Of a stretch of DNA of 45,440 nt, positions 1,010-16,443 are shown in pieces. The stretch lies in assembly GCA_017525035.1 (NCBI GenBank), contig JAFXTH010000010.1:1-45440 (forward strand), in the 5' to 3' direction. Made by a program: the position numbers and the translations under genes. The notes under the pieces are model-generated. The model saw only the letters and a program-made list of their open reading frames with translations. It was not told the DNA's origin and did not search any database. This DNA is from Bacilli bacterium. GTDB taxonomy: Bacteria; Bacillota_I; Bacilli_A; RF39; UBA660. Position 1 is the first letter of the stretch; every line of letters begins with the position of its first letter.

Positions 1010-1016
1010 GTGACTT

Positions 1017-1310
1017 ATGGATAGAGTTGTATATTTAAATTTACTGTATGACCTATACAAAGAATTGTTTACAGAAAAGCAACAAATGTACTTTGAGTCA
1101 TATTACTTTGAAAACTTATCATTGAGTGAAATAGCAGAGAATAACGATGTCTCAAGAAATGCTGTTCATAATCAAATAAAGATTATGGAAGAAAAGCTTA
1201 TTGAACTAGAAGATAAGTTGAAACTTAATGAAAAAAAAGATAAAATAATTAATAAGTTAGAAAATAAGATTGATAAGGATCTATTAGAAGAAATAAAAGG
1301 AATATTATAG
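1017..1310 (+). CDS. ylxM: YlxM family (UPF0122) helix-turn-helix protein
   Basis: A 97-aa protein of the YlxM/p13 family, a small DNA-binding-like protein encoded beside ffh and ftsY in many Gram-positive bacteria and reported to interact with SRP in streptococci. The central segment (about residues 25-55) has the sigma-70 region 4-like helix-turn-helix pattern: QMYFESYYFENLSLSEIAE, then a recognition helix containing SRNAVHNQI. A Lys/Glu-rich coiled tail follows. The start is fixed by AGGTGA a few bases upstream of the ATG. It sits between ftsY and the HerA-like gene, with 7- and 9-base gaps, in one operon. Confidence 0.9.
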   Translation: MDRVVYLNLLYDLYKELFTEKQQMYFESYYFENLSLSEIAENNDVSRNAVHNQIKIMEEKLIELEDKLKLNEKKDKIINKLENKIDKDLLEEIKGIL

Positions 1311-1319
1311 AGGTGGAAT

Positions 1320-3074
1320 ATGTTTGATAAGATATCATATATTAATGAAACTAGCGTATACGTTGATTTAATGCCAGGTGTAGAAATTAAAAATAATATA
1401 CTAAGTTCACACGTTGTTATTGAAGATGCGGAAAAACAATTACTTGGAGAAATAGCAGAAGTAAATCAAACTCAAGTAAGTATTAAATTATTGGGTGAAT
1501 TTACTAATGGTAAACTATTTGGTGGTATCATAAGAAAACCATTAATGGATGCAAAAGTAAGATCAGTTAATGAACAAGAAATTGCAATTATCCTAGGGCA
1601 AACAAATGAAGGCGCAATGTATTTAGGAAGAAGTCCTTTCTATAATGGTGCTCCAGTATGCCTAAGTGTTAATAATTTCTTTGGAAACCATTTTGCTATA
1701 TTTGGTAACTCTGGAAGTGGTAAATCATGCGGTACTGCAAGAGTTATTCAAAACGTATTTATGAACAAAGAAACTCCACCATTAAATGCTAATATAATTA
1801 TCTTTGATGTTTCTGGAGAATATCCAAATGCATTCTCTAGATTATCAGAAATAGATCCAAGATATGATTATAGAGTATTAACAACTAGCCAAACTAATAA
1901 AGAATATGAACAACTAAGAATTCCACTATGGCTATTGAATGCTAATGATTTGGCACTATTATTAATGTCTAGCGCACATTCACAATTACCAATTGTAGAA
2001 AGAATGTTAAAACTAGCTAGAATATTTGCTGAATCAACAGCAATGAGTGAAATGTACAAAGATCACTTAATTGCAAAAGCTATAATTTCTATTTTATTCA
2101 GTGATTCAACACCAGTTAAGAAAAAGAACGACATTTTTGCAATAGTAGAAACATGTCCAACACCAAACTTTAACATGGAGGCAACAATAACTGGTATTGG
2201 TTACACAAGAAAATTAAGAGAATGTTTTAACATAGATAAGACTGGAACATTTACAGAAAGTATTTTGTTCACAGAATATGTAACATCATTTGTTAAAGAA
2301 GAATTAGATAGTTATGAACCAACTGGATTAACATATTACAATTTGCAAGATTTAGAGAAAGCATTAGACTTTACTTTAATATCTGAAGGTTGGTATAATA
2401 ATCCAAACACATATGCAGATGCTGCAAGTGTTAGAGTAAGATTACACTCATTAATAACTAGTGAACAAGCTAAGATCTTTGATTATCCAGACCATGTAGA
2501 TGTTCAACAATTCTTGAGTGCAACAATGTTTAAAGATAATAAGAAACGTCAAATCGTTATTATTAACCCAGAAGATATGGATGACTCTTTAGCAGCAGTT
2601 ATTACAAAGATATTTACAAGAATTATCTTTGATTTTGCTAAGACAGTTCCTAATAAGGGAGCAATTCCATTCCATATTATTGTAGAAGAAGCACACAGAT
2701 ACATTAAAAACGATAATGACCATTATTTAATTGGTTACAATATATTTGAACGTGTTGCAAAAGAGGGAAGAAAATATGGAGTTATCTTAGGTGTAATTTC
2801 ACAAAGACCTGTTGAATTATCTGATACAGTTATTTCACAGTGTTCTAACTTCTTAATATTTAAAACAAACCATCCAGTGGATGAAGAATATATAAGAAAA
2901 ATGATTCCAAATATCAATAGTGATATTGTGGATAAACAAAAAGGATTGCAGTCAGGTACATGTCTAGGATTTGGAACAGCATTCAAAATCCCAGTAATTG
3001 TACATCTTGATATGCCAGATCCAGCACCACTATCATCAAATAGTGATATCGTAGTAAATTGGAAAAACATATAG
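1320..3074 (+). CDS. HerA-like DUF87 ATPase
   Basis: A 584-aa ATPase of the HerA/FtsK superfamily (HerA, DUF87 type). The N-terminal 100 residues form a small beta-rich HAS-barrel-like domain, followed by the ATPase core: Walker A GNSGSGKS at residues 129-136, a conserved IIIFDVSGEY strand, and Walker B IIVEEAHRYI with the EEAH signature at 456-459. After it comes the sensor-like strand VILGVISQRPVELSDTVISQ. HerA proteins are hexameric DNA translocases; archaeal ones work with NurA in end resection, while bacterial ones occur in many defence and housekeeping contexts. No nuclease gene adjoins it. The start is supported by GAGGTG ahead of the ATG. Its place between ylxM and ffh (9 and 10 bases away) is unusual. 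The family is clear; the cellular role is unknown. Confidence 0.85.
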   Translation: MFDKISYINETSVYVDLMPGVEIKNNILSSHVVIEDAEKQLLGEIAEVNQTQVSIKLLGEFTNGKLFGGIIRKPLMDAKVRSVNEQEIAIILGQTNEGAMYLGRSPFYNGAPVCLSVNNFFGNHFAIFGNSGSGKSCGTARVIQNVFMNKETPPLNANIIIFDVSGEYPNAFSRLSEIDPRYDYRVLTTSQTNKEYEQLRIPLWLLNANDLALLLMSSAHSQLPIVERMLKLARIFAESTAMSEMYKDHLIAKAIISILFSDSTPVKKKNDIFAIVETCPTPNFNMEATITGIGYTRKLRECFNIDKTGTFTESILFTEYVTSFVKEELDSYEPTGLTYYNLQDLEKALDFTLISEGWYNNPNTYADAASVRVRLHSLITSEQAKIFDYPDHVDVQQFLSATMFKDNKKRQIVIINPEDMDDSLAAVITKIFTRIIFDFAKTVPNKGAIPFHIIVEEAHRYIKNDNDHYLIGYNIFERVAKEGRKYGVILGVISQRPVELSDTVISQCSNFLIFKTNHPVDEEYIRKMIPNINSDIVDKQKGLQSGTCLGFGTAFKIPVIVHLDMPDPAPLSSNSDIVVNWKNI

Positions 3075-3084
3075 AGGTGATAAA

Positions 3085-4392
3085 ATGTTTGAGAGCTTGG
3101 GGGAAAGATTACAAAGTGCTCTTTCAAAAATTAAAGGAACAGGTAAGATTACCGAAAATAACATAAGTGATATGATGCGTGAGATTCGTCTTGCGCTTTT
3201 GGAAGCTGATGTTAACTATACTGTAGTAAAGGAATTTACAAACAAAGTTAAAGAAAAAGCTTTAGGTGAAGAAGTACAAAGAAGCTTAAAACCTGGAGAA
3301 GTATTTGTTAAGATTGTTAAAGATGAATTAACAGAACTTTTAGGTGGAGAGCAAAAACCATTAAACCTTAATGGTAATCCAGCAATACTTATGTTGGTTG
3401 GTCTTCAAGGTAGTGGTAAAACTACACATATTGGTAAATTATCTTTAATGTTAAGAAAAAAACATGCCAAAAAGCCACTTCTTGTTGCGTGCGATGTATA
3501 TCGTCCAGCTGCAATAGACCAATTAAAACAAATTGGAAAACAATTAAACATCGAAGTATATGAAGAAGGTAAGAAAGACCCAGTAGAAATTGCTGAAAAT
3601 GCTATTAAATATGCTAAAGAAAACAAATACGATTATGTTTTAATAGATACAGCAGGTCGTTTACATATTGATGAAGACTTGATGGAAGAGCTAGAAAACA
3701 TAAGAAAGAAAGTTAATCCACAAGAAATACTACTTGTAATTGACTCTATGATGGGGCAAGATGCTATTAATGTTATTGAAGGATTTAATAGTAAATTACC
3801 ACTTACAGGAGTTATATTAACTAAGTTGGATGGTGATACACGTGGTGGTGTAGCATTATCAGTAAGACATTTAACTAATGTTCCAATTAAATTCATTGGT
3901 ATTAGTGAAAAAATGGATGGACTAGATGTATTTGATCCAGAAAGAATGGCTGGAAGAATATTGGGAATGGGAGATATTATATCTCTTGTTGAAAAAGTTC
4001 AATCAGAAATAGATGAAAAAGAGGCAGAGAAAGCTGCTAAGAAAATGCAAAATGGTAAGTTTGACTTAGAAGACTTCCTATCTAGCATGAAACAAGTTAA
4101 AAAGCTTGGTCCTCTTGAGAACCTTCTTAAACTAGTTCCAGGAGCATCTAAGATGGGACTTAATAAAGTTCAAATAGATCCAAAACAACTTGCACACATT
4201 GAGGCTATTGTTCTTTCGATGACACCAAAAGAAAGAAAAAATCCAGACATTATTAAAGCAAGTAGAAAAACAAGAATAGCAAAAGGCTCTGGAAGATCTG
4301 TTCAAGAAGTAAATCAATTACTTCAACAATTTGAGCAAATGAAAAAGATGATGAAACAAATGTCTAATGGTAACATGAAAATGCCATTTTAA
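3085..4392 (+). CDS. ffh: Ffh, SRP54 signal recognition particle GTPase
   Basis: Ffh binds 4.5S/SRP RNA and the signal peptides of nascent chains and delivers them to FtsY. The 435-aa protein has the usual length. The N domain starts MFESLGERLQSAL; the G domain carries the P-loop GLQGSGKTT (106-114), DTAGR (188-192) and TKLDGDTRGG. The Met-rich M domain follows: LGMGDIISLVEK, then a C terminus with repeated methionines (MKKMMKQMSNGNMKMPF) that would line the signal-peptide groove. AGAGGTGAT precedes the ATG. It is the last gene of the ftsY-ylxM-herA-ffh operon; a terminator starts immediately after the stop. No SRP RNA gene was recognised in this window. Confidence 0.98.
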   Translation: MFESLGERLQSALSKIKGTGKITENNISDMMREIRLALLEADVNYTVVKEFTNKVKEKALGEEVQRSLKPGEVFVKIVKDELTELLGGEQKPLNLNGNPAILMLVGLQGSGKTTHIGKLSLMLRKKHAKKPLLVACDVYRPAAIDQLKQIGKQLNIEVYEEGKKDPVEIAENAIKYAKENKYDYVLIDTAGRLHIDEDLMEELENIRKKVNPQEILLVIDSMMGQDAINVIEGFNSKLPLTGVILTKLDGDTRGGVALSVRHLTNVPIKFIGISEKMDGLDVFDPERMAGRILGMGDIISLVEKVQSEIDEKEAEKAAKKMQNGKFDLEDFLSSMKQVKKLGPLENLLKLVPGASKMGLNKVQIDPKQLAHIEAIVLSMTPKERKNPDIIKASRKTRIAKGSGRSVQEVNQLLQQFEQMKKMMKQMSNGNMKMPF

Positions 4393-4479: not shown

Positions 4480-5001
4480 ATGAAAAAAGCATTAAAAATT
4501 GTTTTAAGTATAGTTATTTCAGTATATTTAATACTAATCGTATTCACAACAGCATTCCTACTAAATAGAAATGATTATGGAGTTTCTTCTTTTGCAGGAA
4601 GATATCTAGTACTTGTTGAAGATGAGGGAATAGAAGACTACAGTAACAACACACTTTTATTTATCAGTAAAGTAGATAATAAAAATATCGAAATTGGACA
4701 AAAGGCATTTTTCTATGATACTTATTCAACAGATCATAAAATAAAATATGCTGAAGTTGTAAGAAAAGAAGAAATTAATGAAAAAGAAACAACATATGTA
4801 TTAAAAGATAACTCTTCTGTATCTAGTGAATATGTATTAGGTACAAAAGAATCAACATCAGCACATCACTTCTTAGGACAATTACTTTATGTATTACAAT
4901 CTAAATGGGGATTCCTATTCTTAGTTGTATTTCCATTATTCTTGGCTTTCATATACGAAATATACGCAATCTATAAAGAAATTAAAAATAATAAACAATG
5001 A
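4480..5001 (+). CDS. Signal-peptidase-I-like membrane protein, probably inactive
   Basis: A 173-aa protein with an N-terminal membrane helix (about 6-28), a short extracellular beta-rich body and a C-terminal membrane helix (about 143-165). This layout, and alignment by eye with the two other SipW-type peptidases at 5606 and 12676, suggest the same fold: the segment ending VLGTKESTS matches the place where active enzymes read GRV followed by the pre-helix linker. The catalytic motifs are absent: the SGSM.P box is replaced by a VLVEDEG-like stretch and the THR(I/V) histidine box by a KYAEVV-like stretch. It is therefore probably a pseudopeptidase, perhaps a chaperone or binding partner for substrates. 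Its stop overlaps the next start as ATGA, implying translational coupling. The assignment rests on visual alignment only. Confidence 0.55.
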   Translation: MKKALKIVLSIVISVYLILIVFTTAFLLNRNDYGVSSFAGRYLVLVEDEGIEDYSNNTLLFISKVDNKNIEIGQKAFFYDTYSTDHKIKYAEVVRKEEINEKETTYVLKDNSSVSSEYVLGTKESTSAHHFLGQLLYVLQSKWGFLFLVVFPLFLAFIYEIYAIYKEIKNNKQ

Positions 5002-5609
5002 AAAAACATATAATGGTCTTAGCACCATTCTTTTTCTTAATTGGAATATATCTTTTAATAGGATCGTATGGATTGTTTGAGAGTGAAAGAACTAATACTA
5101 GCCAAATAGATATAGCTAAGTGGCAGGTAAAAGTTAATAATGATAGTATAGATGGAAGTACATCAACATTTACAGTTGATAATATAAACTGGAACTCATC
5201 ACCAAATGTAAAAGAGGGTAAGATAGCTCCAGGAGGAAGCGGTTACTTTGATATAGTAATTGATCCAAATGATACAGATGTATCAATAATATATAATATT
5301 ACATTTGATTTTTCTAACTTAGATGAAGATCAATTTCAAATTGATGAAATAATAGAACTAGACAATAAACCAATTGTACATACAGACACATACACATATA
5401 GTAATATAATGACATTAGATGATATTAATAATAATGAAACTAATACTATAAGAGTATACTTAAGCTGGGTAAATGATGAGAATAACAATGAAAAAGATTC
5501 TGATTTAGGCAAAGTATATAACAATAGTATTGAGATACCAATAACAGTTGAAATTTTGCAATATATGGATGGTGATACTTTGACTAGTATAGAGGAGAAT
5601 ACACCATGA
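4998..5609 (+). CDS. TasA/camelysin-like exported protein
   Basis: A 203-aa small exported protein. An N-terminal hydrophobic segment (about 5-24) ends in a GSYGLF sequence resembling the G(T)YA.F cleavage region of SipW-dependent proteins. It is followed by IAKWQVKVN, a pattern shared with the minus-strand protein at 13948 (IARWKILVN). Further shared features are a KEGKIAPGGSGYFDI-like loop, matching NEGVIAPNAEGYFDL in that protein, and a conserved VYLSWVND strand near the C terminus. The fold is expected to be the TasA/CalY jelly roll, and the role a fibre or matrix subunit processed by a SipW-type peptidase. Its start and stop both overlap its neighbours as ATGA, so it is tightly coupled to the two peptidase-like genes. 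Confidence 0.75.
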   Translation: MKKHIMVLAPFFFLIGIYLLIGSYGLFESERTNTSQIDIAKWQVKVNNDSIDGSTSTFTVDNINWNSSPNVKEGKIAPGGSGYFDIVIDPNDTDVSIIYNITFDFSNLDEDQFQIDEIIELDNKPIVHTDTYTYSNIMTLDDINNNETNTIRVYLSWVNDENNNEKDSDLGKVYNNSIEIPITVEILQYMDGDTLTSIEENTP

Positions 5610-6733
5610 AAAATAAAATATTGAAGATAACAAGAAAAGTTATTACAACAATACTTAGCATTATAATGATATTACCTATGTTGCTTGCTGTATATAACTT
5701 TTTTTCAGTTAAAATATTAAATCAACCATATTCTAATGTTTTTGGATATACTGTATTTGAAGTTATAAGTGGAAGTATGTCCCCAACAATAGATAAATAT
5801 GACGTAATACTTGTAAAAATTAATGACGACTACGATGTAGGGGATGTAGTATCGTTTGAAAGTAACGGGGCAATAATAACTCACAGAATTACAGAAATAA
5901 GAGATGATACATGCATAACAAGAGGAGATGCTAACAACACAATAGACAAACCAATAAAAAAAGATAAGATTATTGGAAGAGTTGTTAAAACATTTTCAAA
6001 AGTAGGAGTATGGACTAAAGTCCTTACAACTCCTAAAGTAATGGTTGCATGTCTTGCTACCATTGCCATAATGATATATACAATAAAACTTTTAAAGAAA
6101 AAAGAAAAAGTACAAATCGAGAATATAAAAGAAGATAATAGTGAAAGAAGAAGAGAGATTATGGAGAAGTTAAAGCATAATAATAGACTTAAAATTGAAA
6201 TATGTATATTCTTTATATTGCTAGCATTATTACTATTCTTGGTACCATATACTTTTTCAAGATTAAGAACAGAAACAAGAGCAAATCCGACTGTGGATAT
6301 TGCCTTCTTCCTTGCAAAAGACACATATACGCATGAAGAAATAAATTTAACTGATTTAAAACCAGGAGATAGCAGTTCATATACCTTTAGTGTATCTAAC
6401 ACTGATGGAACAAATAGATCAGAAGTAAATATGGACTATTTTGTTGAAGTAAAAGCTACAACTAATTTACCGCTTAGATATGATCTTTACTTAATAAACA
6501 GTGGAATAGATGTTCCTTTTATAAGTGATGAAGAAATAATAAGCGATGAAGATGGAACATATTTCAAAACATTAAAAACGTCAAGTAGGACACTTGACTT
6601 TGAAAATGACACGACAGATTATTACAAGTTGACTATAAGCTTTGATAGCGAATATAGCACTCATAAATATCAAGATGTTGCAGAAAACATAGAAATAACA
6701 GTAAATGCTAAACAAAAACTAGATACAGATTAA
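5606..6733 (+). CDS. SipW-type signal peptidase I fused to a TasA-like exported domain
   Basis: A 375-aa fusion. Residues 1-160 form a complete SipW/ER-type signal peptidase I: membrane helix at about 9-31, catalytic serine S57 in SGSMSPT (55-61), histidine H93 in the ITHRI box (His replaces the bacterial Lys in this subfamily), a RGDANN segment, a GRVV strand, and a second membrane helix at about 145-160. A charged linker leads to M186 and a third membrane segment (LKIEICIFFILLALLLFLVP). A TasA-like domain then follows, with LKPGDSSSYTFSVSN and a beta-rich end. The frame is unbroken, so this is a real fusion, although ATG 6161 (M186) has a purine-rich stretch before it and could give an independent second product. 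It is the last gene of the 4480 operon; no terminator hairpin is visible after it. Confidence 0.85.
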   Translation: MKNKILKITRKVITTILSIIMILPMLLAVYNFFSVKILNQPYSNVFGYTVFEVISGSMSPTIDKYDVILVKINDDYDVGDVVSFESNGAIITHRITEIRDDTCITRGDANNTIDKPIKKDKIIGRVVKTFSKVGVWTKVLTTPKVMVACLATIAIMIYTIKLLKKKEKVQIENIKEDNSERRREIMEKLKHNNRLKIEICIFFILLALLLFLVPYTFSRLRTETRANPTVDIAFFLAKDTYTHEEINLTDLKPGDSSSYTFSVSNTDGTNRSEVNMDYFVEVKATTNLPLRYDLYLINSGIDVPFISDEEIISDEDGTYFKTLKTSSRTLDFENDTTDYYKLTISFDSEYSTHKYQDVAENIEITVNAKQKLDTD

Positions 6734-6853: not shown

Positions 6854-6871
6854 GTATTGGAGGGAATAAAA

Positions 6872-7903
6872 ATGGAGAATAAGAAGAGAAGAAGCAAGAA
6901 GAGAAGATTATTATTACTTTTAATAGCATTATTTTTTACAACTGTAATGTTTACTACAACAACTTATGCATGGTTTACTGCAAACCAAACTGTTAAAGTT
7001 AATTCATTAACTGTTAATGTAGAAGCTAAAAACGGTATCCAAATTTCTGTTGATGGTACTAACTGGAAGTCAATTATCCAAACAGAAGATATAACTGGAG
7101 CAGCTACTTCATATAGTGCTAGTGTTAACCAATTGCCTACAACTATGGAACCAGTATCTACAGTTGGTGAAATAGACACTACTGGTAAAATGAAGATGTA
7201 CTATGGTACTATCACAAGTAATGCTGGCGGAAGTTATATTCTAACTGCACAAAAAGATACTGAGGTTAGTGGAACAAGTGGTAAGTTTATCGCATTCGAT
7301 TTATTCTTTAAAGTTACTTCACAAACACAAATATATATATCAAAAGCATCTGGAGTACAAGTTGCTGATGCAGATGACACAGGTATCAAAAATGCTTCAA
7401 GAGTAGGATTTGTTGTTCTTGGTAATGCTGATGCCGGAGATTCTGTTGCAAATATCCAAGCACTAGGATTAAACTTATCTGCTGAACAAGCAGCAGCAAT
7501 CCCTAAATATATTTGGGAACCAAACTATGACGTTCATACAGCAGCAGCTGTAGCACATGCACGTGATACATACGGTGTAACAACTACTCAAACAGCTGGA
7601 AGTCAAATTTCATATGTAGGAGTTAAAAATGATATTGCAGCTACTGACAACGTATTAGTTCAAGTAACTGATCCAACAAGTTACGCAACAACATATTCAT
7701 CATTATTTGGTGCTGTTAACGTAACACATGCTACTAAAGCAGGAGCTGGATTTGATGCAAACTTAGGATTATTTACTCTACAAGCTGGTATTACTAAAGT
7801 AAGAATTTACATGTGGGTTGAAGGACAAGATGTTGATTGCGAAAACAATGCATCTGGTGGATCAATTAAATATGATTTAGTAATTACTACACTAAGCGAA
7901 TAA
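6872..7903 (+). CDS. Exported TYAWFT-signal protein, candidate major fibre/matrix subunit
   Basis: A 343-aa exported protein. I chose ATG 6872, placed after GGAGGG; an in-frame TTG at 6857 lies upstream of that site and is unlikely. A basic start (MENKKRRSKKRR) leads into a hydrophobic helix ending TTTTYAWFT, the form of signal seen in many SipW-type substrates. The mature part is Thr/Ala/Val-rich and beta-rich, and ends with VRIYMWVEGQDVDCEN, shared almost exactly with the paralogue at 15436. Other shared blocks are SVDGTNWKSI, GKFIAFDLFFKV and WEPNYDVHT. It is monocistronic, with its own promoter, operator-like repeats, UTR hairpin and terminator, which points to separate and probably strong, regulated expression. 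The biochemical function is not known. Confidence 0.8.
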   Translation: MENKKRRSKKRRLLLLLIALFFTTVMFTTTTYAWFTANQTVKVNSLTVNVEAKNGIQISVDGTNWKSIIQTEDITGAATSYSASVNQLPTTMEPVSTVGEIDTTGKMKMYYGTITSNAGGSYILTAQKDTEVSGTSGKFIAFDLFFKVTSQTQIYISKASGVQVADADDTGIKNASRVGFVVLGNADAGDSVANIQALGLNLSAEQAAAIPKYIWEPNYDVHTAAAVAHARDTYGVTTTQTAGSQISYVGVKNDIAATDNVLVQVTDPTSYATTYSSLFGAVNVTHATKAGAGFDANLGLFTLQAGITKVRIYMWVEGQDVDCENNASGGSIKYDLVITTLSE

Positions 7904-7913
7904 TAAATAATAA

Positions 7914-7942
7914 ATACATCCAAAAAAGGATGTATTTTTTTT
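7914..7942 (+). terminator. Rho-independent terminator after the 6872 gene
   Basis: ATACATCC (7914-7921), loop AAAAAA, GGATGTAT (7928-7935), then an uninterrupted run of eight T. It isolates the 6872 gene from the downstream operon. Confidence 0.9.
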
Positions 7943-8000: not shown

Positions 8001-8927
8001 ATGAAAAAGAGTAAAAAAAAGAAGATTAATAACAAAAAAATAATTATAATTGTAGCTCTTTTAACTGGACTATTCCTAATTGGTACATATGGTAGATACA
8101 TATATAGAGGTATTAGAAACTATTATTTAAGTACTAAGAATTTCTATTTCAATAGTGATAAGCTAACTGAAGATGAATCATATTATCAGCTTGACAACTG
8201 GTCAGGTGTTGAACCTGTTACTATTACATTCAACATGAATAGTAAAAAAAATAATATAGTATCATCAAGTGATAACATTACTTATGATATAAGTTTTGAG
8301 TGTTCAACTAACGTTGATTGTGTTGCATCTAAAAACAGCGGATTAATAATGAATGGTACGAATACTGATTCTTTTACCATAACGATGACACCAAATACCC
8401 AACTAGGAGATGGTGATTCTGTGTGGCTAGAAGTAGAAACAAGCGCCACTAGTCCATATACTAAGACACTTAGTGGGAAGTTCACAATTAATGTTGGAGA
8501 AATAGGACTTTCTTACGAAATAGTGGATTCAAGAGGAAGCCCTTATTTGGATTTTAATATTACTAATACTCTTGATTATTATGAAGTTATTGAAGCTTTC
8601 GGCACATATAGTGTTGGAGATAGAATGGAAATAAGAGAATATCTTGCTTTGAGCCATGCAAACAAAGCCCATTGTACATCAGCATTAATAACATTAACGT
8701 TCGATCCAAACTTGTTTAGACTTGATATGACTAATGAAGCTTATTTACAAGCAAAAAGGACAACGACAACAACAATGAGTGATGGATTTGATTATATTAA
8801 CAGTGTAACATTTGGTACAGATGCCTTATCTAGTACATCTGTAAGGTTTTACAAATTAAATACAAATAATAATTATACATACCCGTTTGTAACTAGTACG
8901 CCAATTATTACATTCTCTAGTGAATAG
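8001..8927 (+). CDS. Membrane-anchored exported protein of unknown function
   Basis: A 308-aa protein with a strongly basic start (MKKSKKKKINNKK), a single hydrophobic helix (about 14-32) ending GTYGRYIYRG, and a long extracellular beta-rich region. GTYGRY resembles the signal region of SipW-type substrates, so it may be cleaved; otherwise it stays anchored by the N-terminal helix. The ectodomain contains a short Cys pair (FECSTNVDCVAS) and an acid-rich FYFNSDKLTEDESYYQLDNW segment. I recognise no enzyme motif. It is the first gene of a transcription unit that continues through the AAA+ cassette and a signal peptidase, with 11 bases to the next gene. GGAGAG lies before the ATG. Confidence 0.7.
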   Translation: MKKSKKKKINNKKIIIIVALLTGLFLIGTYGRYIYRGIRNYYLSTKNFYFNSDKLTEDESYYQLDNWSGVEPVTITFNMNSKKNNIVSSSDNITYDISFECSTNVDCVASKNSGLIMNGTNTDSFTITMTPNTQLGDGDSVWLEVETSATSPYTKTLSGKFTINVGEIGLSYEIVDSRGSPYLDFNITNTLDYYEVIEAFGTYSVGDRMEIREYLALSHANKAHCTSALITLTFDPNLFRLDMTNEAYLQAKRTTTTTMSDGFDYINSVTFGTDALSSTSVRFYKLNTNNNYTYPFVTSTPIITFSSE

Positions 8928-8938
8928 GAAGTGGTTTT

Positions 8939-9913
8939 ATGAATATGCTAAAGGAGTATATAAACTTTGAGAAGAATAATATTACATTATTTGCAAAACA
9001 AGTTTTATCTACTGATTATTATGAAGAAGAAACCTTTAGTAAATTATTAGACATTTATATGGAAAATAGATATTACAACTTTTATAGTGATGAAGCTACT
9101 CCTTTTGAAGAGAGAATATTCAATCACTTAAGGAAAGCTGTAATGAAGCTAAGTGAAGGTCAAGATGATAATACAAAAGCTAGACTAGCTGAAATGTTTA
9201 CTGTATTCAACTATGTATTATGTCTTGACGGAGTTAAAACTATAACATATAAAACACTTGTGAGATTAGTATCAGAGTATCATAGAAATCTATATAGTCT
9301 TGAAGATGTAACACTATTTAGAGAAGAGATGACTAAATTACTAAAAGGAATTGAAGATAAAAGAAAAAAATTCTTTGATTACTTTAAAACAAGTGATTTT
9401 GAGATAAAAAACTATACAACATCAAAAGACAATTTGATTGATGTTGAACTAAAATATAATATTAAATTTCCTAAGTTATATAGCGAATTTGCAATAGATA
9501 GAGTATTTAATGAAGGAGTTGTTAAAGAAGATAAATTGTTAGTAGAATACTATTTACTAACCAGCGTGATTATAAAAGATATACGTGGATGTGTGTTTGA
9601 TAGATTTTATTTAATCGATTTTTCAACTTCTTTATTTGAAGATAAAGAAAGGCTAGCCAATTTATTAGAAATAGCTAGTGATGACTGCTTTAAAGGGCAA
9701 ACAATATTTAAAATAACATATGAAGACTACACAAAGTATGGTAATGATATTAAGAATATGATTAGAGATGGATATATGTTTGCAATAAAAATAAAAGATG
9801 ATATAGAAAAGAATGATTTTATTCTATTTGAGATGTTTAATTACATTATTGTTGATAATAATTCAAAATATCTAAAGAGCAAGAATGATAAAATCATTGT
9901 AATAAATGATTAA
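8939..9913 (+). CDS. Cytoplasmic protein of unknown function in AAA+ cassette
   Basis: A 324-aa protein without a signal peptide or obvious membrane helix. It is rich in Lys, Glu, Asp, Tyr and Phe; the first half is mainly helical with charged repeats, the second half mixed alpha/beta. No catalytic motif was recognised. It lies 11 bases after the exported protein and 13 bases before the AAA+ ATPase gene, so the three genes 8939, 9927 and 11490 form a compact cassette inside the surface-protein operon. An adaptor or regulatory subunit of the AAA+ protein is a reasonable guess from position only. TAGGAAGTGG upstream of the ATG can serve as ribosome binding site. Confidence 0.6.
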   Translation: MNMLKEYINFEKNNITLFAKQVLSTDYYEEETFSKLLDIYMENRYYNFYSDEATPFEERIFNHLRKAVMKLSEGQDDNTKARLAEMFTVFNYVLCLDGVKTITYKTLVRLVSEYHRNLYSLEDVTLFREEMTKLLKGIEDKRKKFFDYFKTSDFEIKNYTTSKDNLIDVELKYNIKFPKLYSEFAIDRVFNEGVVKEDKLLVEYYLLTSVIIKDIRGCVFDRFYLIDFSTSLFEDKERLANLLEIASDDCFKGQTIFKITYEDYTKYGNDIKNMIRDGYMFAIKIKDDIEKNDFILFEMFNYIIVDNNSKYLKSKNDKIIVIND

Positions 9914-9926
9914 TAGGTGGTGAAGT

Positions 9927-11450
9927 ATGGATACATTTTTGAAGTTTTTGTTTGAATTTCTTTCACAATTCTTCTCTGGACTTATAGAAATAGGTTTGGG
10001 AATAGTTAATGGAGTTGCAAAGATATTTAATGTCAAAGAGTACATTGCTATTATTAATGACTATAAAAGCGATTTTACAGTAGTAGAATGGATATTTGTA
10101 GTACTAGCGATAATCGTAGTATTAGCACTTATCTTTGCATTAGGATTACTTGTATACTTTGCTGCAAGAAGATTATTAAGATTTAGGAAGACTTTAGTAG
10201 ATCAAGAATCACTTCTTGAAGAAGTAGGAGAACTTAATAATAAAGTTGCAACGCTTGTTAAAGAACGTGAAGAAATACTTGCGATGAAGGTGTCACACTT
10301 AGGAATTAAACCTAATGAATCAGATACTGAAGAGGTTAGTGAAAACCCTGAAGATAATGGACCTACAGAAGCTCCAAGATTCTCTAAATTATTTGATATT
10401 GACCAAGAGTATGCTAACTATAAGATTCAAAATTATGGTAACTCATTTACTTTGGAGGAATTGTGTAGTAACTTTAGAAACTTTGCTGCATCGCAGTTAA
10501 AACTATATTATAAGCCACAGATGATAAGATTATTTATATCTGCGCTTGCATCAACAAAACTAGTAATATTACAAGGTATTTCAGGAACAGGTAAAACTTC
10601 CCTTGCTTATGCTTGGGGAAAATTCTTGAAGCACGACTCATGTATTGCATCTGTACAACCATCATGGCGTGATAGAACAGAGTTATTTGGATACTTCAAT
10701 GAATTTACTAAGAAGTTTAATGAAACAGAAGTATTAAAAGAATTATATGTTGCTGGATATACTGATGATGTTTATACAGTAATCCTAGACGAGATGAACA
10801 TTTCACGTGTTGAGTATTACTTTGCTGAAATGCTATCTATTCTAGAAATGCCTAACCATGACGAGTGGATAGTAGAGCTAGTTGCATCATCATGGAAAAA
10901 CGATCCAAAGCACGTTGTTGGTGGAAAACTTAAAATACCAGAGAATGTTTGGTACATAGGTACAATCAATAACGACGACTCAACATTCATGGTTACAGAT
11001 AAAGTATACGACCGTGCTATGCCTATAGATATTAACGAAAAAGGTGAGGTATTTACACCAGAAGAAATACCTGCACAAGATATTAACTTTAGTTATCTAA
11101 ATAGCTTATTCAAAGATGCTATAGAAAAGAATCCAGTATCAGAAGATACACTAAATAAAATTGAAGAAATGGATAACTACGTAATACAACATTTCCGTAT
11201 CGCGTTTGGTAACCGTATTGTTTCTCACTTAAAGAAATTTGTACCAGTTTATGTTGCGTGTGGTGGAGATGAAATTGAAGGTGTAGATTACTTCATTGCT
11301 AAAAAGATTTTAAGAAAATTTGAACAATTAAATATTTCATACATAAGAGATGAAATTGATGGATTTGTTGAGTTCTTAGATAACACATTTGGAACAGGTA
11401 AGATGAAAGAATGTGAAGAATACGTTCTAAGACTTAAGAAACTTACTTAA
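9927..11450 (+). CDS. Membrane-anchored McrB-like AAA+ ATPase
   Basis: A 507-aa AAA+ protein. The N terminus (1-90) has an amphipathic/hydrophobic stretch and a clear membrane helix (about 52-78), followed by a coiled segment. The AAA+ module has Walker A GISGTGKT (217-224), Walker B VILDEMN (285-291), and sensor-1 GTINNDD (345-351) followed by VYDRAMPIDI. The LDEMN and GT(I/M)N..D pattern is that of the McrB/AAA_5 group rather than of proteases. McrB relatives drive nucleic-acid or protein remodelling, often with a DUF2357 or McrC partner; here the membrane anchor and the surface-protein neighbourhood point to a role at the membrane. The next gene is a DUF2357-like partner 39 bases on. The substrate is unknown. 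Confidence 0.85.
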   Translation: MDTFLKFLFEFLSQFFSGLIEIGLGIVNGVAKIFNVKEYIAIINDYKSDFTVVEWIFVVLAIIVVLALIFALGLLVYFAARRLLRFRKTLVDQESLLEEVGELNNKVATLVKEREEILAMKVSHLGIKPNESDTEEVSENPEDNGPTEAPRFSKLFDIDQEYANYKIQNYGNSFTLEELCSNFRNFAASQLKLYYKPQMIRLFISALASTKLVILQGISGTGKTSLAYAWGKFLKHDSCIASVQPSWRDRTELFGYFNEFTKKFNETEVLKELYVAGYTDDVYTVILDEMNISRVEYYFAEMLSILEMPNHDEWIVELVASSWKNDPKHVVGGKLKIPENVWYIGTINNDDSTFMVTDKVYDRAMPIDINEKGEVFTPEEIPAQDINFSYLNSLFKDAIEKNPVSEDTLNKIEEMDNYVIQHFRIAFGNRIVSHLKKFVPVYVACGGDEIEGVDYFIAKKILRKFEQLNISYIRDEIDGFVEFLDNTFGTGKMKECEEYVLRLKKLT

Positions 11451-11489
11451 TAAAGAATTAAAAAGAATAAAAAGAATTGGGGTGATATT

Positions 11490-12668
11490 ATGGATGAAGT
11501 TGTTGAAAATGATGAGAGCATTGCTGTTGAAACAGATGACACTAACGTCGGAGAACTTCAAATAACTGATTTGTATAATGAACATTCAAATGAAATAATC
11601 GAAGAATTCAATAATGGTATCGTATCTAGTTTAGATGTAGATGTAGACTATGATAAAACTGAGTTTTCAACTGAATGGTTAACAATAATGGAAGATACTA
11701 TTAGATACATCGATAATATCTTAAGAAACCCTAATAGATTCATAATAAATGAAGAAGACATTGTTAAAGTAGAACTTGCAAGGCGTGTTACTGTAGAAAG
11801 TATTAAACACCTTTCAAGAAATACTAACTTAATTCAAAAATTTGACAAGAAAACAGGAGAAGTTAAACCTTCTAAAATACTTAATATAAACAAAGAAGAA
11901 AGCTATGATACTTATGAAAATAGGTTTATTTATAGTTTGATTCAAAATATGAGAGCCTATATTAACTTCAAAAAGAAGGCTTTAGAGGGAGTTACATGCG
12001 CAAAAGACAACAAGAAATTAAAATATAATGCTTCATCTAAAATAGGTAATACAAATTATAATATGACTGTTATATTGGACAGTACTTTAGAAGCTGATTC
12101 TCAAGATGAAAATAGTATTGATAATGTGCTAGAACGTATAGAAAAACTTGAAAATAAAGTAACTGATTTAACAGGATCAGAAACTTATAAAACAATTCAT
12201 AAGTTACATATAACACTAGTTACATCACCAATAAAGAAGACAAATGTAATACTTAAAAATACTAACTTCCAATATGCTTTAAAACTTTGGAATTATATGC
12301 AAGAGCATATGAATACTGAGACAAAGAATGTTAAAGAAAATAAGACTGAAAAAGTAGAAGGAAAGACAAAAGATTATCAAGATGAAATATTCTTACTTAA
12401 CTATTTAGTATTAAATTTATATGCTAATGGCCCAGCAAGAAAGACTGATGCTAGAAAGAAAGAAGTATCTAAAAAAATTGTTAATGGAATGCTTCAAAAG
12501 TTAATGGAAATGAATGCTATTGATAAGAAGGAAATACTTGATTTAATTGATAAGTATTACACTGTTGTAAAATATAAAAACGTTGTTAATGATAAAGAAA
12601 TACATGATAAGTTTAAAGCAGCAATTAAAGAGTATGTTGATAGATTCAACAGTTTAAACTTGGAATAG
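11490..12668 (+). CDS. DUF2357-like partner of the AAA+ ATPase
   Basis: A 392-aa cytoplasmic protein. An acidic N terminus is followed by helices and the motif ESYDTYENRFIYSLIQNM (about residues 131-148), which resembles the ENRF signature of DUF2357-type proteins commonly encoded next to McrB-like ATPases. Full-length members of that group often end in a PD-(D/E)XK nuclease; I see no such motif here, so a nuclease role is not supported. Helical, Lys-rich sequence fills the rest. Its position directly after the McrB-like gene and 7 bases before a signal peptidase gene supports a functional pair with the ATPase. GGGGTGAT is a good ribosome binding site before the ATG. The family call is tentative. 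Confidence 0.55.
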   Translation: MDEVVENDESIAVETDDTNVGELQITDLYNEHSNEIIEEFNNGIVSSLDVDVDYDKTEFSTEWLTIMEDTIRYIDNILRNPNRFIINEEDIVKVELARRVTVESIKHLSRNTNLIQKFDKKTGEVKPSKILNINKEESYDTYENRFIYSLIQNMRAYINFKKKALEGVTCAKDNKKLKYNASSKIGNTNYNMTVILDSTLEADSQDENSIDNVLERIEKLENKVTDLTGSETYKTIHKLHITLVTSPIKKTNVILKNTNFQYALKLWNYMQEHMNTETKNVKENKTEKVEGKTKDYQDEIFLLNYLVLNLYANGPARKTDARKKEVSKKIVNGMLQKLMEMNAIDKKEILDLIDKYYTVVKYKNVVNDKEIHDKFKAAIKEYVDRFNSLNLE

Positions 12669-12675
12669 AGGTAAC

Positions 12676-13299
12676 ATGAAAGCATTAAAAATTGGTTTAA
12701 AATTATTAAAAGCATTGTTAACTATTTTAGTAATATTAGTGCTAATAATAGTTATTGTACAAAAAGTATCTGGAAACAAAGTTAGAATGTTTGGATATGG
12801 TGTATATACTGTATTAACAGGATCAATGGAACCAGAATACGAAGTAGGTGATATGCTTCTTGCAAAAGAAGTAGCAAAAGACGATATTAAAGTAGGAAAT
12901 GACTTAGTATATCAAGGTGAAGTAGGAGACTTTTCAGGAAAAATAGTAACTCACAGAGTTATTGCAATTGATTCGAAGATACACACAAAAGGTATTGCTA
13001 ATGACTTTGAAGACCCTGAAATTGAATATTCACAAGTTCAAGGTAGAGTAATATCTAAATTAACAGTATTAAGTGCTTTTAGTAAACTAATGAATAATAC
13101 TGTAATGTTCTATATAATGGTTTTTGTACCATTCTCAATATTAATATTCTTAGATATTAGAGATATAGTTTTGGAAACTCAAGAAAAGAAAGCTGAAAAG
13201 AATAAAGAAGCTGAAGTAATTGAAGAAACAAAAACAGAGATAGTAGAAGAGAAGACTACTGAAATAATAGAAGAGGTAAAAGAAGAAAACAAGGAGTAA
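12676..13299 (+). CDS. SipW-type signal peptidase I with acidic C-terminal tail
   Basis: A 207-aa integral membrane peptidase that would remove signal peptides from TasA-like and TYAWFT proteins. It has a membrane helix at about 9-30, the catalytic serine S50 in TGSMEPE, the ER/SipW-type histidine H93 in VTHRVI, a QGRVISK strand and a C-terminal membrane helix (about 140-158). After this helix comes a cytoplasmic-side tail of about 45 residues made largely of Lys, Glu, Thr and Ile in short repeats (IEETKTEIVEEKTTEIIEE), unusual for SipW and possibly a docking coiled coil. It is 7 bases after the DUF2357-like gene and 2 bases before a TasA-like gene, a typical enzyme-substrate pairing. Confidence 0.9.
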   Translation: MKALKIGLKLLKALLTILVILVLIIVIVQKVSGNKVRMFGYGVYTVLTGSMEPEYEVGDMLLAKEVAKDDIKVGNDLVYQGEVGDFSGKIVTHRVIAIDSKIHTKGIANDFEDPEIEYSQVQGRVISKLTVLSAFSKLMNNTVMFYIMVFVPFSILIFLDIRDIVLETQEKKAEKNKEAEVIEETKTEIVEEKTTEIIEEVKEENKE

Positions 13300-13301
13300 T
13301 T

Positions 13302-13922
13302 ATGAGCTCTAAAAAGAAGTTAACAATATTTGAAATATTAAAGATTGTTTTCAAAAGAGTACGTCTTAGTACTCTTATTTTGCTCGTGATTACACTTTCA
13401 TCTACAACATTCGCATGGTTTATATATGCTACAAAAGTATCAACAGGTATTACAGCACATATTGATGCATGGGATATAATGTTTACCCAAGCTAATACGC
13501 CTGTTGAAGAGTATATTAGCTTTAATATTCCTAGTATAAGACCAGGAATGCCTAATTATACCGATAGTGTTACTGCATACAATCGTGGTGAAAGAGATGC
13601 AGAAATATCATATGAAATAGTAAGCGTTAAAATACTTGGAACTTTATACACAACTGATGATGTGTTAACAAGTACTCAAATGATTAATAATCTTGCTCAT
13701 AATTATCCGTTTAAGATTACTTTTGATTTAACAAACGAAGATATAGATGCTACAACAGGATCATCAACGTTTACAATATATGCCGAATGGCCTTTTGAAT
13801 CAGGAAATGATGAACTAGATACTTATTGGGGAAATAAGTCATATCAGTATCATGCTGATTATCCTGATGAACCAAGTATAGAAATGACAATAAAGATTTC
13901 AGCTATACAAATAAACAATTAA
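13302..13922 (+). CDS. TasA-like exported protein with TFAWF signal
   Basis: A 206-aa exported protein. The basic N terminus and hydrophobic helix (about 19-40) end in SSTTFAWFIYATKV, close to the TTYAWFT signal of the larger exported proteins. The mature part contains ITAHIDAWDIMF, corresponding to the AKW/ARW strand of TasA-like proteins, RPGMPNYTDSVTAYNRGERDAEISYEI, which looks like the jelly-roll core, and a conserved aromatic IYAEWPFESGNDELDTYWG near the end. This last block resembles the large-residue W-x-E strand of other SipW substrates. It closes the 8001 operon and is followed by a bidirectional terminator. Confidence 0.75.
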   Translation: MSSKKKLTIFEILKIVFKRVRLSTLILLVITLSSTTFAWFIYATKVSTGITAHIDAWDIMFTQANTPVEEYISFNIPSIRPGMPNYTDSVTAYNRGERDAEISYEIVSVKILGTLYTTDDVLTSTQMINNLAHNYPFKITFDLTNEDIDATTGSSTFTIYAEWPFESGNDELDTYWGNKSYQYHADYPDEPSIEMTIKISAIQINN

Positions 13923-13924
13923 AA

Positions 13925-13949
13925 AAAGATACACATTTGTGTATCTTTT
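13925..13949. terminator. Bidirectional terminator between convergent genes
   Basis: AAAGATACACA (13925-13935), TT, TGTGTATCTTT (13938-13948): an 11-bp inverted repeat with A and T runs on either side. It can stop the plus-strand operon ending at 13922 and the minus-strand gene ending at 13948. Confidence 0.85.
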
Positions 13950-14526
13950 ATATTTGTACAACTCTTATTGATACATCGAGCATTCCTTTTTGGTTGCCAA
14001 CAGTTGTATCAGTATCTTGTGAATTTGTCATTAGATTTAATGAGTCATCCCATTTAACAAAAACTCTTATATTAATCGGATCATCTCTATCTGCTAATCT
14101 AACAATTCCTTCGACCTTTTTATCATTTCCAAATTCTACTTCGTTGCCACCATTTATTATATATTTCGTTGCCACTAATTCTGTAACAGGACTATTTGGA
14201 TTTGGACCAATAGTAATTTCGTATTCGAATGAAACATCTACATTACTTGCATCAAGCACTAAATCGAAATATCCTTCAGCATTAGGAGCAATAACACCTT
14301 CATTAATATCACTTGAGCCAGGAAATACTGGTGTGATAAGTGATGACGAAGTTGAACCTAAAGTAATATCATCATTATTAACTAAAATCTTCCATCTTGC
14401 AATAGAAGATGATGTAGTAGATGTTGCAACAGTAACATATTTAGCATATGTTTCGCCAATCATGCACATTGTTATAAAAAGGCAGCTTAGTGATAGCGCA
14501 ACCATGAGAAATTTTTTCTCTAACAA
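13948..14526 (-). CDS. TasA/camelysin-like exported protein on the minus strand
   Basis: A 192-aa exported protein, the only minus-strand gene of the surface locus. I use the TTG start at 14526 because AGGAGGT lies 6 bases before it (14533-14539); no ATG has such a site. The signal helix (about 5-24) ends GETYAKYV, followed by SIARWKILVN, INEGVIAPNAEGYFDLVLD and RVFVKWDDS. These blocks match the protein at 4998 (IAKWQVKVN, KEGKIAPGGSGYFDI, RVYLSWVND), so the two are paralogues and likely SipW substrates forming or modifying the fibre. The antisense reading frame on the plus strand over the same region has no ribosome site or family features. Confidence 0.8.
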   Translation of the reverse strand: MLEKKFLMVALSLSCLFITMCMIGETYAKYVTVATSTTSSSIARWKILVNNDDITLGSTSSSLITPVFPGSSDINEGVIAPNAEGYFDLVLDASNVDVSFEYEITIGPNPNSPVTELVATKYIINGGNEVEFGNDKKVEGIVRLADRDDPINIRVFVKWDDSLNLMTNSQDTDTTVGNQKGMLDVSIRVVQI

Positions 14527-14651: not shown

Positions 14652-15452
14652 ATGGCTAAAGAAGTATTATTAACTGCCGATAAATTACATAGAAGAAAAA
14701 AGACAGCTAAAGTAGCAAAAATAACTAGCTTAGTCATTTTAGCTGTCCTAACAGTTATATTTGTTATTTTAACGTTGATTTTTAAAGGTGGTAAATTTGT
14801 CATTCAACTTGATAAGGGCGCAAATCGTGATAGTAATTTGGCGATTTATGACTTTAAAGACGATAGAGATATGAAAAGAAAATTATATGCTGATGAAATG
14901 CCATATATGGATAATATTTCCATTAAATGGATTCCTAAGGATATAGATACTGAAAAAGAAGGATCACATAATGGAAATAACTATATTGCGTATACATTCT
15001 ATGTAGAAAACATAGGAGACGTTGCAGTTAATTATTGGTATGAAATAGTTATTGATGATGTTATCAAAAGAGTAGATGAGGGAATCAGAATAATGATTTA
15101 CCTAAATGGTGAACCAACAGTGTATGCTAAAAAGAATGCTGATACTAATGAAGCAGAACCTGACACAACAGCATTCTACGAAGGTGTTACTAATGATGAT
15201 GAGTATATCGCTGTACTTGAACAAAGAAAAGCGCTTATGCCAGGAGAGCCAGATAGAATTACTGTAGTTGTATGGATTGAAGGGGATGACCCTGATACAG
15301 TAAATACACTAATTGGTGGCGATATCAAGATGCATATGAATATACGTGAAGAAAGAATCAACCAAAATGAACTTGAAAAGTTAGATGAAGATAACGTAGA
15401 AGAACCAGAGGAAGAGGAAAACAAGGAGGAAGAAGATGAACAGAACGAGTAG
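14652..15452 (+). CDS. Membrane-anchored TasA-like-looking protein with acidic tail
   Basis: A 266-aa protein with a basic start and one hydrophobic helix (about 25-45), then an extracellular domain containing YTFYVENIGDVAVNYWYEI, MIYLNGEPTVYAK and ITVVVWIEGDDPDT. The first block looks like the core strands of a TasA-type jelly roll, and V(V/Y)(V/M)W(I/V)EG is shared with the ends of the 6872 and 15436 proteins (YMW(V/I)EGQD). The C terminus is a run of Glu/Asp with Asn and Lys (about 25 residues). Its last 17 bases overlap the start of the next gene, so the two are translationally coupled. Without a clear cleavage motif it may stay anchored and act as a base or nucleator for the fibre. Confidence 0.65.
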   Translation: MAKEVLLTADKLHRRKKTAKVAKITSLVILAVLTVIFVILTLIFKGGKFVIQLDKGANRDSNLAIYDFKDDRDMKRKLYADEMPYMDNISIKWIPKDIDTEKEGSHNGNNYIAYTFYVENIGDVAVNYWYEIVIDDVIKRVDEGIRIMIYLNGEPTVYAKKNADTNEAEPDTTAFYEGVTNDDEYIAVLEQRKALMPGEPDRITVVVWIEGDDPDTVNTLIGGDIKMHMNIREERINQNELEKLDEDNVEEPEEEENKEEEDEQNE

Positions 15453-16443
15453 AAGACTAAAACGTGTTTACTTATTAATTCTCTTTTTGTTTACCTTAGC
15501 AATGCTTTCAACAACAACTTATGCATGGTTCACATCAAATAGAATAGTAACAGTAAATACAATTAACGTACACGTTGCAGCAAGTGGTGGAATTGAAATA
15601 TCTGCAGATGGTACTAATTGGAAATCAATTATTACACCAGAAGATATTACAAGCGTTCATGCTACTACATATCCAACAAGCGTCAACCAAATACCATATT
15701 CACTTGAACCAGTTTCATCAGGATTAGAAGTTGACCCTGCAACTGGACTATTGAAAATATACTATGGATTAACAGATAACAACACTTTAGGTGATTACAT
15801 AATAACAAGTACAAGAAGTGTAGAAACTGAAGGTAATGGAGCAACAAACAATGGTAAATTTATTGTTTTCGATTTGTTTTTCAAAGTAAGCAGTGATACA
15901 CAACTTTACCTAACAAGTAATTCCAAAGTAACATATTTAAATACTGAACAAGGAAAAGGTATTGCTAATGCAACAAGAATTGTATTTGTAAACGAAGGAA
16001 CAGTACCAACAGGTAGTGATCTTGCAACAATACAAGGGCTTAGAAATGCTAATAACAATACAGTTTATTCTTGGGAACCAAATTATGATATACATACACA
16101 AGCAGCAGTAAATCATGCATATAACTTGTATGGAATTATCACACAAACAGAAAATGGTAACAGAATAATTTATGATGGAATTACAAACGATATTGCTAAA
16201 ACAGACAATGTTTTACTAAGAAATGCTAAAGCAACATATTTTCCAACAAAGTTTAAAACAGTAATGATAGATTATTACACGAAAAATGATTTCACAGCAA
16301 ACGTTCCTGTATTTACTTTAGAAAGTGGAATAACAAAAATGAGAATATACATGTGGATTGAAGGACAAGATGTAGATTGTGAAAATGATGCCTCATATGA
16401 TGATATTCAATTTGATTTACAACTAACAGTTAATCCATCATAG
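15436..16443 (+). CDS. Exported TYAWFT-signal protein, paralogue of the 6872 product
   Basis: A 335-aa exported protein. A basic N terminus and hydrophobic helix (about 9-29) end STTTYAWFTSN. It is clearly homologous over its full length to the 6872 product: SADGTNWKSIITPEDIT, NGKFIVFDLFFKVS, YSWEPNYDIHTQAAVNHAY, DIAKTDNVLL and the C-terminal MRIYMWIEGQDVDCEND are all retained, while the sequence between these blocks diverges. It sits in an operon with an anchored TasA-like protein (17-base overlap upstream) and the giant repeat protein (14 bases downstream). A minor subunit or an anchor-side adaptor of the same fibre is plausible. Confidence 0.8.
   Translation: MNRTSRRLKRVYLLILFLFTLAMLSTTTYAWFTSNRIVTVNTINVHVAASGGIEISADGTNWKSIITPEDITSVHATTYPTSVNQIPYSLEPVSSGLEVDPATGLLKIYYGLTDNNTLGDYIITSTRSVETEGNGATNNGKFIVFDLFFKVSSDTQLYLTSNSKVTYLNTEQGKGIANATRIVFVNEGTVPTGSDLATIQGLRNANNNTVYSWEPNYDIHTQAAVNHAYNLYGIITQTENGNRIIYDGITNDIAKTDNVLLRNAKATYFPTKFKTVMIDYYTKNDFTANVPVFTLESGITKMRIYMWIEGQDVDCENDASYDDIQFDLQLTVNPS

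Follow-up and report, generated by a model that had tools for sequence, protein, structure and literature searches.

Three adjacent genes in a 45,440-nucleotide stretch of the Bacilli bacterium contig JAFXTH010000010.1 (GCA_017525035.1), referred to here as the window, constitute a real and conserved system that probably does not act in restriction. The genes, named like all others here by their start positions in the window, encode a 324-amino-acid (aa) protein (8939), a 507-aa McrB-type AAA+ ATPase (9927), and a 392-aa DUF2357 protein (11490), and they lie among genes for exported proteins and SipW-type signal peptidases in a genome of 1.25 Mb that is 88% complete. We consider it likely that 9927 is a membrane-anchored McrB-type motor of the NxD clade and 11490 its nuclease-less activator, that the two energize export of surface proteins processed by SipW, or their assembly, and that they are controlled through 8939 as an EAL-derived subunit.

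From the exported protein gene 8001 through the trio to the SipW gene 12676, successive genes are separated by only 11, 13, 39, and 7 bases, and with a further exported protein gene (13302) they form a six-gene unit (8001 to 13922) bounded on both sides by terminator-like sites (Table 1). Rereading of the sequence reproduced the open reading frame positions, spacing, ATPase motifs, and ENRF motif given in an initial annotation of the window that had been made from the sequence alone. Its placement of the trio between an exported protein gene and a SipW gene with no terminator also held, save for a weak 5-pair stem at 8203 inside 8001, the only terminator-like site in the interval that opens with 8001 and closes with the SipW gene. 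A weaker stem-loop lies at 13355, inside 13302. Because this layout is kept in dozens of genomes, a chance arrangement of the trio and surface genes can be excluded.

The link of the trio to surface protein genes is real. A SipW profile, built and iterated in this analysis and broad enough to admit SipW-like proteins that lack the Ser motif, found a match no more than four genes from the ATPase in 90 of 94 informative loci; trios were thus not mostly located in defense islands devoid of surface genes. An independent check with TIGR02228 found a SipW gene no more than 5 kb away for 22 of 26 ATPase genes; for comparison, the whole 1.25-Mb genome of the window organism carries four SipW genes. 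In the window, the TIGR02228 matches of both 12676 and 5606 exceed the family cutoff. Furthermore, an 8939-type domain is fused to SipW as its C-terminal part in L045, L047, L048, L115, L123, L125-L128, L131, and L135; placed after the second transmembrane (TM) segment of SipW, this domain should by the usual SipW topology face the cytosol. Loci L049-L052 are free of SipW, and there the 324-type protein, ATPase, and DUF2357 protein are followed by a protein of about 430 aa. Read by eye, this protein has a cytosolic part and a TM helix ahead of DxDxDG calcium-type repeats, and its C-terminal domain is TasA/camelysin-like. Among the exported proteins of the window, the only sign of a TasA/camelysin domain was a Peptidase_M73 match in 5606 that falls below the cutoff. 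A catalytically altered SipW relative, represented by 4480, is conserved at the start of surface loci.

The ATPase motifs of 9927, which include GISGTGKT (residues 217 to 224), LDEMN (287 to 291), and GTINNDD (345 to 351), are nearly all invariant among 15 sequences of 44 to 100% identity. The protein matches the McrB family NF008457 (E = 1.4e-5) and the McrB structure 6hz4 in the PDB (E = 1.6e-4 by sequence and 1.1e-6 by profile). Its GTINNDDST segment aligns with GTANHDETT, GTANQDEST, and GTMNEDETT of CoCoNuT-type relatives (N-x-D-[DE]-[ST]-T), beside which 9927 groups in a tree of the ATPases; judged by its sequence, 9927 is a member of the NxD clade of McrB-like NTPases. No family match to a DNA-recognition domain of the McrB type was found in 9927, the N terminus being occupied instead by a single strong membrane helix, arginine- and lysine-rich residues (AARRLLRFRK), and a short heptad-like coiled coil. 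Given the helix and the charged residues that follow it, the AAA+ domain should be cytosolic. The helix and heptad-like segment, as read from the sequence and alignment, may correspond to the FtsB-like TM/coiled-coil arrangement of CoCoPALM, a kind of locus discussed below.

The match of 11490 to DUF2357 lies above the family cutoff, and in its ENRF motif E143 and N144 are invariant and R145 is nearly invariant in 70 relatives. Among 132 distinct ATPase genes examined, the gene that follows encodes DUF2357 in 121 of 131 cases. Family searches, PADLOC included, found no nuclease family in 11490. Its predicted structure, of moderate confidence (predicted local distance difference test [pLDDT], 73; predicted template modeling score [pTM], 0.49), has a helical C-terminal part that ends in a 43-residue helix and shows no nuclease-like fold. 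Long coiled-coil-like tails are present on the DUF2357 proteins of L053, L054, and L058, and the DUF2357/McrC partner in CoCoPALM usually has a coiled coil. The pairing of an McrB-type AAA+ protein bearing an N-terminal membrane helix with a DUF2357-like partner, as first proposed, is confirmed.

The initial annotation had also doubted a restriction function, and this doubt is supported. Neither family searches nor models revealed a PD-(D/E)XK nuclease in 11490 or 8939. No match among 50,697 phage records or 72,556 plasmid records covered 80% of 9927, and a scan of viral contigs found no full-length relative; the phage and plasmid matches were limited to the AAA+ core, at 25 to 40% identity, and lay in CoCoNuT- or McrBC-looking loci. 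Since SipW accompanies nearly all informative loci and full-length copies were absent from the phages, plasmids, and viral contigs searched, a restriction role is unlikely. With no nuclease, no copies on mobile elements, and a surface gene context, restriction or defense was rejected as the leading interpretation.

Sequence searches yielded no significant family match for 8939, which had been listed initially as an unknown protein; its EAL-like fold could not be read from the sequence alone and emerged only from structure prediction. An AlphaFold2 (AF2) model based on 58 homologues (pLDDT, 94.0; pTM, 0.90) was used in a fold search of the PDB, and all 50 of the 50 listed matches were EAL proteins, including FimX, LapD, MorA, and RocR. 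The best match had an E value of 2.6e-4 and a probability of 1.00, TM scores reached 0.46 by target, and the EAL domain of FimX was among the top structural matches. The catalytic and metal positions of EAL domains are not conserved in the 8939 family, in which only Y40, D97, F154, Y181, and Y224 are near-invariant. We predict from the model that 8939 is a degenerate EAL-like pseudoenzyme, without the catalytic residues of a cyclic di-GMP (c-di-GMP) phosphodiesterase. A PD-(D/E)xK nuclease in 8939 was considered and rejected, the predicted fold being EAL-like.

Sister lineages hold EAL proteins where the window has 8939. EAL proteins occur near the locus in 18 of the 29 informative loci that lack the 324-aa protein, and the two types never co-occur among informative loci. 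Six of the 11 loci with neither belong to a distant 614-aa ATPase type, and L189, which also has neither at the locus, has a second ATPase copy in its cluster with EAL genes some 5 kb away. With 3 to 8 EAL genes per genome, approximately 0.07 would be expected per 24-kb stretch, an excess that is to be taken as an indication and not as a probability because the loci are related. L134 forms the first branch within the 324-type clade of the ATPase tree, and its genes run 324-type, 14652-like, 6857-like, SipW, ATPase, and DUF2357; in L133 and L139, an EAL gene is followed by 14652-like, 6857-like, SipW, ATPase, and DUF2357 genes. The E values of neighbors in these three loci are optimistic, since the profiles were iterated and possibly included these proteins. 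A profile built without the L134 protein assigned it to the 324-aa family (E = 1.2e-12), and its sole Pfam match is a weak one to EAL (E = 0.045). A hunt for further basal relatives, with the L134 protein as query against 296 genomes, was unproductive. Taken together, the fold, the shared slot, and the mutual exclusivity make descent of 8939 from an EAL protein the best reading and a highly probable one.

Because sister lineages have EAL proteins in this slot, and the active sites of some are complete, the system was probably controlled by c-di-GMP ancestrally. Sixteen EAL domains of these loci are intact at all catalytic positions checked; a second EAL paralogue (as in L054, L194, and L199) keeps most catalytic residues without one of two aspartates, and Clostridial EAL domains are degenerate. 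In L208-L211, L213, and L214, the gene immediately before the ATPase encodes a TM-anchored degenerate GGDEF-EAL protein, and that of L210 scores above the Pfam cutoffs for both domains. These loci and L216 combine a one-TM protein of 2000 to 2650 aa, a TM degenerate GGDEF-EAL protein, the ATPase, and DUF2357, with no SipW directly adjoining. Control by c-di-GMP in the window organism itself is uncertain, because the catalytic residues are gone from 8939 and the only GGDEF match in the genome, on contig C17 (L173), has the altered signature RSDGNEF. The EAL family had no match anywhere in this 88% complete genome. The L173 protein is a membrane protein with two substrate-binding-like regions. 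Of 97 relatives, 73 have GGDEF and 24 the ATPase, and its presence does not track the trio.

In those 24 relatives the ATPase is mostly full length and carries the membrane anchor. Across 84,980 species genomes of a larger collection, it was found in at least 569 stretches, with relatives mostly in gut Bacilli and Clostridia; the 80 loci kept came from Bacilli, Clostridia, and "Tenericutes" metagenome-assembled genomes, largely from animal guts. Several variants of the locus were seen. In L217-L219, two or three shorter McrB-like ATPases (420 to 478 aa) flank a single DUF2357 gene beside large exported proteins, and in L122 and L124, an ATPase-DUF2357 pair without the 324-aa gene or SipW is followed by a one-TM protein of 2761 to 2768 aa. 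The distant ATPase type (588 to 614 aa) of L057 and L220-L224 adjoins SipW, and its McrC-like partner has a zinc ribbon at the end; retention of a nuclease in this type was considered and rejected, as the PD-(D/E)xK residues are not conserved and the D-x-K that seems to be present in L057 is not kept throughout the six loci.

A model can be proposed in which the trio serves as cytosolic engine to a CoCoPALM-type machine for surface protein export or assembly. McrB forms hexamers, and the DUF2357 stalk of McrC stimulates hydrolysis. By analogy, 9927 would form an McrB-like AAA+ ring, presumably a hexamer, in which each subunit is tethered to the membrane through a single TM helix, and 11490 would act as an McrC-like stalk that binds the ring and stimulates NTP hydrolysis, with the coupled movement of the two being spent at the membrane instead of on DNA. 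The likely clients would be the SipW-processed, TM-anchored surface proteins of the operon, which might be pulled, remodeled, or released in order for fiber assembly. 8939 may serve as a control or adaptor subunit connecting signal, motor, and SipW, comparable to FimX for PilB. Hexamer formation, stalk action, client handling, and c-di-GMP control of the trio are steps that we infer. More tentatively, and with some doubt on our part, such loci could represent a new class of surface filament assembly engine, in which a membrane-anchored McrB-type motor with a DUF2357 stalk is switched by c-di-GMP via EAL-family subunits and powers export or polymerization of SipW-processed proteins.

Several observations weigh against the proposed surface protein motor. 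The kinship of 8939 with EAL proteins is suggested by the fold prediction, by the order of the genes, and by weak hints, and it is not significant by sequence: the best Pfam E value was 0.011, reached in 2 of 58 members and not significant, profile comparison with hhalign was likewise not significant (P = 0.12), and a wide EAL profile gave E > 6 against 8939. A fold search with the weak 11490 model returned no meaningful match and none to McrC, and since that model is only moderate, an undetected domain in 11490 is conceivable. The loci counted are phylogenetically related and not independent. The ATPase core of 9927 matches the PADLOC candidate defense family PDC-M26A (E = 9.5e-35), and the patchy distribution of the trio is typical of accessory surface genes and defense genes alike. 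Finally, the initial annotation had suggested that the pair may drive or control secretion, assembly, or quality control of the fiber proteins; of this, the link to surface genes stands, and direct action of the motor on export or assembly is what we infer.

The PADLOC match and the patchy distribution would suit an anti-phage role, in which a CoCoNuT/McrBC relative within a surface operon guards the envelope or answers phage adsorption, as would the relatedness of the AAA+ core to CoCoNuT and McrB proteins on plasmids. However, no nuclease or other effector was found, the full-length form is missing from the mobile elements searched, the partners are exported proteins and SipW, and the adjacent surface genes have no PADLOC matches, so that we regard defense as very improbable. 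The trio might alternatively be a quality control device, the membrane-anchored ring extracting or clearing misinserted or uncleaved SipW precursors in the manner of FtsH or Msp1-type AAA+ proteins. Its position beside SipW and substrates with TM signals fits this idea, as does the conserved, catalytically altered 4480, but there is no protease domain, the McrB partner occupies the ring pore in known structures and would hinder threading, and an EAL-type regulator better suits a switchable assembly machine; we consider this explanation rather unlikely. It is very improbable that the trio only relays a signal to the expression or activity of the surface operon without mechanical work on proteins. 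Degenerate EAL and GGDEF-EAL proteins are indeed typical signaling adaptors, yet family searches found no DNA-binding domain in the trio, and the invariant Walker A, Walker B, and sensor residues together with the membrane anchor point to a working membrane motor.

Table 1. Features of the surface protein locus in the window
Feature	Position	Strand	Basis
SipW-like membrane protein, candidate pseudo-peptidase	4480..5001	+	No SGSM/TGSM motif in translation; no Pfam match; SipW profile matches relatives
Exported surface protein, N-terminal hydrophobic segment	4998..5609	+	Translation; family conserved in loci
SipW-type signal peptidase, then further TM segment and weakly camelysin-like exported domain	5606..6733	+	TIGR02228, E = 1.8e-19; Peptidase_M73, E = 0.005
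Exported protein, SipW-type signal (TTTYAWFT)	6857..7903	+	Translation; family present in relatives
Terminator-like stem-loop preceding six-gene unit	7912..7937	+	
Exported protein, first gene of unit	8001..8927	+	Translation; conserved directly upstream of 324-aa gene
Predicted degenerate EAL-like protein, 324 aa: helical N-terminal half, EAL-fold C-terminal half	8939..9913	+	AF2 model; PDB fold matches; SipW fusions in relatives; slot shared with EAL proteins
Membrane-anchored McrB-type AAA+ NTPase, NxD clade by sequence: TM ~54-80, coiled coil ~84-125, AAA+ ~198-505	9927..11450	+	
DUF2357 (McrC N-domain) protein without recognizable nuclease domain	11490..12668	+	PF09823, E = 2.2e-13; helical C-terminal part in model; conservation
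SipW-type signal peptidase	12676..13299	+	TIGR02228, E = 3.4e-19
Exported protein (STTFAWF), last gene of unit	13302..13922	+	Translation; conserved beside SipW
Two-way terminator-like stem-loop closing unit	13924..13949	.	
Divergent exported protein (GETYAKY), related to 4998	13948..14526	-	
Exported/membrane surface protein	14652..15452	+	Homologues between EAL and SipW-ATPase in sister lineages
Exported protein, wider family shared with 6857	15436..16443	+	
Giant protein, 2645 aa	16458..24395	+	No Pfam match; kept at locus end in several relatives

Just upstream of these genes (2 to 4392), the window carries ftsY, a ylxM-like gene, a HerA/DUF87 ATPase gene, and ffh (SRP54); the HerA gene, inside this signal recognition particle gene group, matches the PADLOC HerA models (E = 2e-107). 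Further downstream are a 993-aa protein with an N-terminal AAA domain (38326 to 41307; PF00004, E = 1.7e-12) and an 899-aa protein (41337 to 44036) that bears a prepilin-type methylation motif at its N terminus, an Ig-like (Big_3) domain, and Listeria-Bacteroides repeats.

If the proposed surface protein motor is correct, motors of a family known to cleave foreign nucleic acid would also run the assembly of surface proteins in hundreds of Bacilli and Clostridia from the gut, and surface assembly would be tied to c-di-GMP signaling, which is little understood in these lineages. The briefly named CoCoPALM family would gain a testable job and a missing component, and catalogues of defense genes that use the McrB core (PDC-M26A, for example) may contain nondefense systems. 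Should the more tentative idea of a new engine class also hold, it would add a further solution to the PilB-type, chaperone-usher, and sortase systems, with a defense motor turned to building the cell surface.

Among known systems, the closest working model is the FimX-PilZ-PilB machinery of type IV pili (PMC8389850), where a degenerate EAL protein works with a filament assembly ATPase. Here, McrB/DUF2357 would stand in for PilB and SipW-processed exported proteins for pilins, and no PilZ was seen; the comparison is an analogy that implies no kinship of the motors. The SipW-TasA/CalY fiber operons of Bacillus (PMC9674648 and PMC13082335) share a SipW-type peptidase and exported fiber-like proteins, but as described they use the chaperone-like TapA and CapP, and the abstracts name no ATPase or EAL subunit, whereas the window locus has the AAA+ trio and many more exported proteins. 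With CoCoNuT and McrBC type IV restriction systems, the trio has in common an AAA+ core with the NxD[DE][ST]T motif and a DUF2357 partner; it differs in its membrane anchor, its surface gene context, and its lack of a nuclease, RNase, or helicase partner and of full-length plasmid or phage copies. The trio also resembles CoCoPALM, and the initial suggestion of an undescribed system therefore did not hold, as such loci had been named by Bell et al. in 2024 (PMC11090510). One paragraph of that paper, which defers details, describes NxD McrB GTPases that carry a fused FtsB-like TM segment and coiled coil and are associated with signal peptidases; c-di-GMP, EAL, GGDEF, and TasA go unmentioned in the main text, and no later CoCoPALM paper was found in the open-access literature. 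The shared features are the NxD McrB GTPase with an N-terminal TM segment and coiled coil, the DUF2357 partner, and the adjoining signal peptidase. That paragraph names no EAL or c-di-GMP component and no substrates, and the loci analyzed here go beyond it in their predicted degenerate EAL subunit, its fusion to SipW in some loci, their likely surface clients, and the loss of a nuclease. The kind of system has thus already been named, whereas its composition and its link to EAL proteins and c-di-GMP appear to be new.

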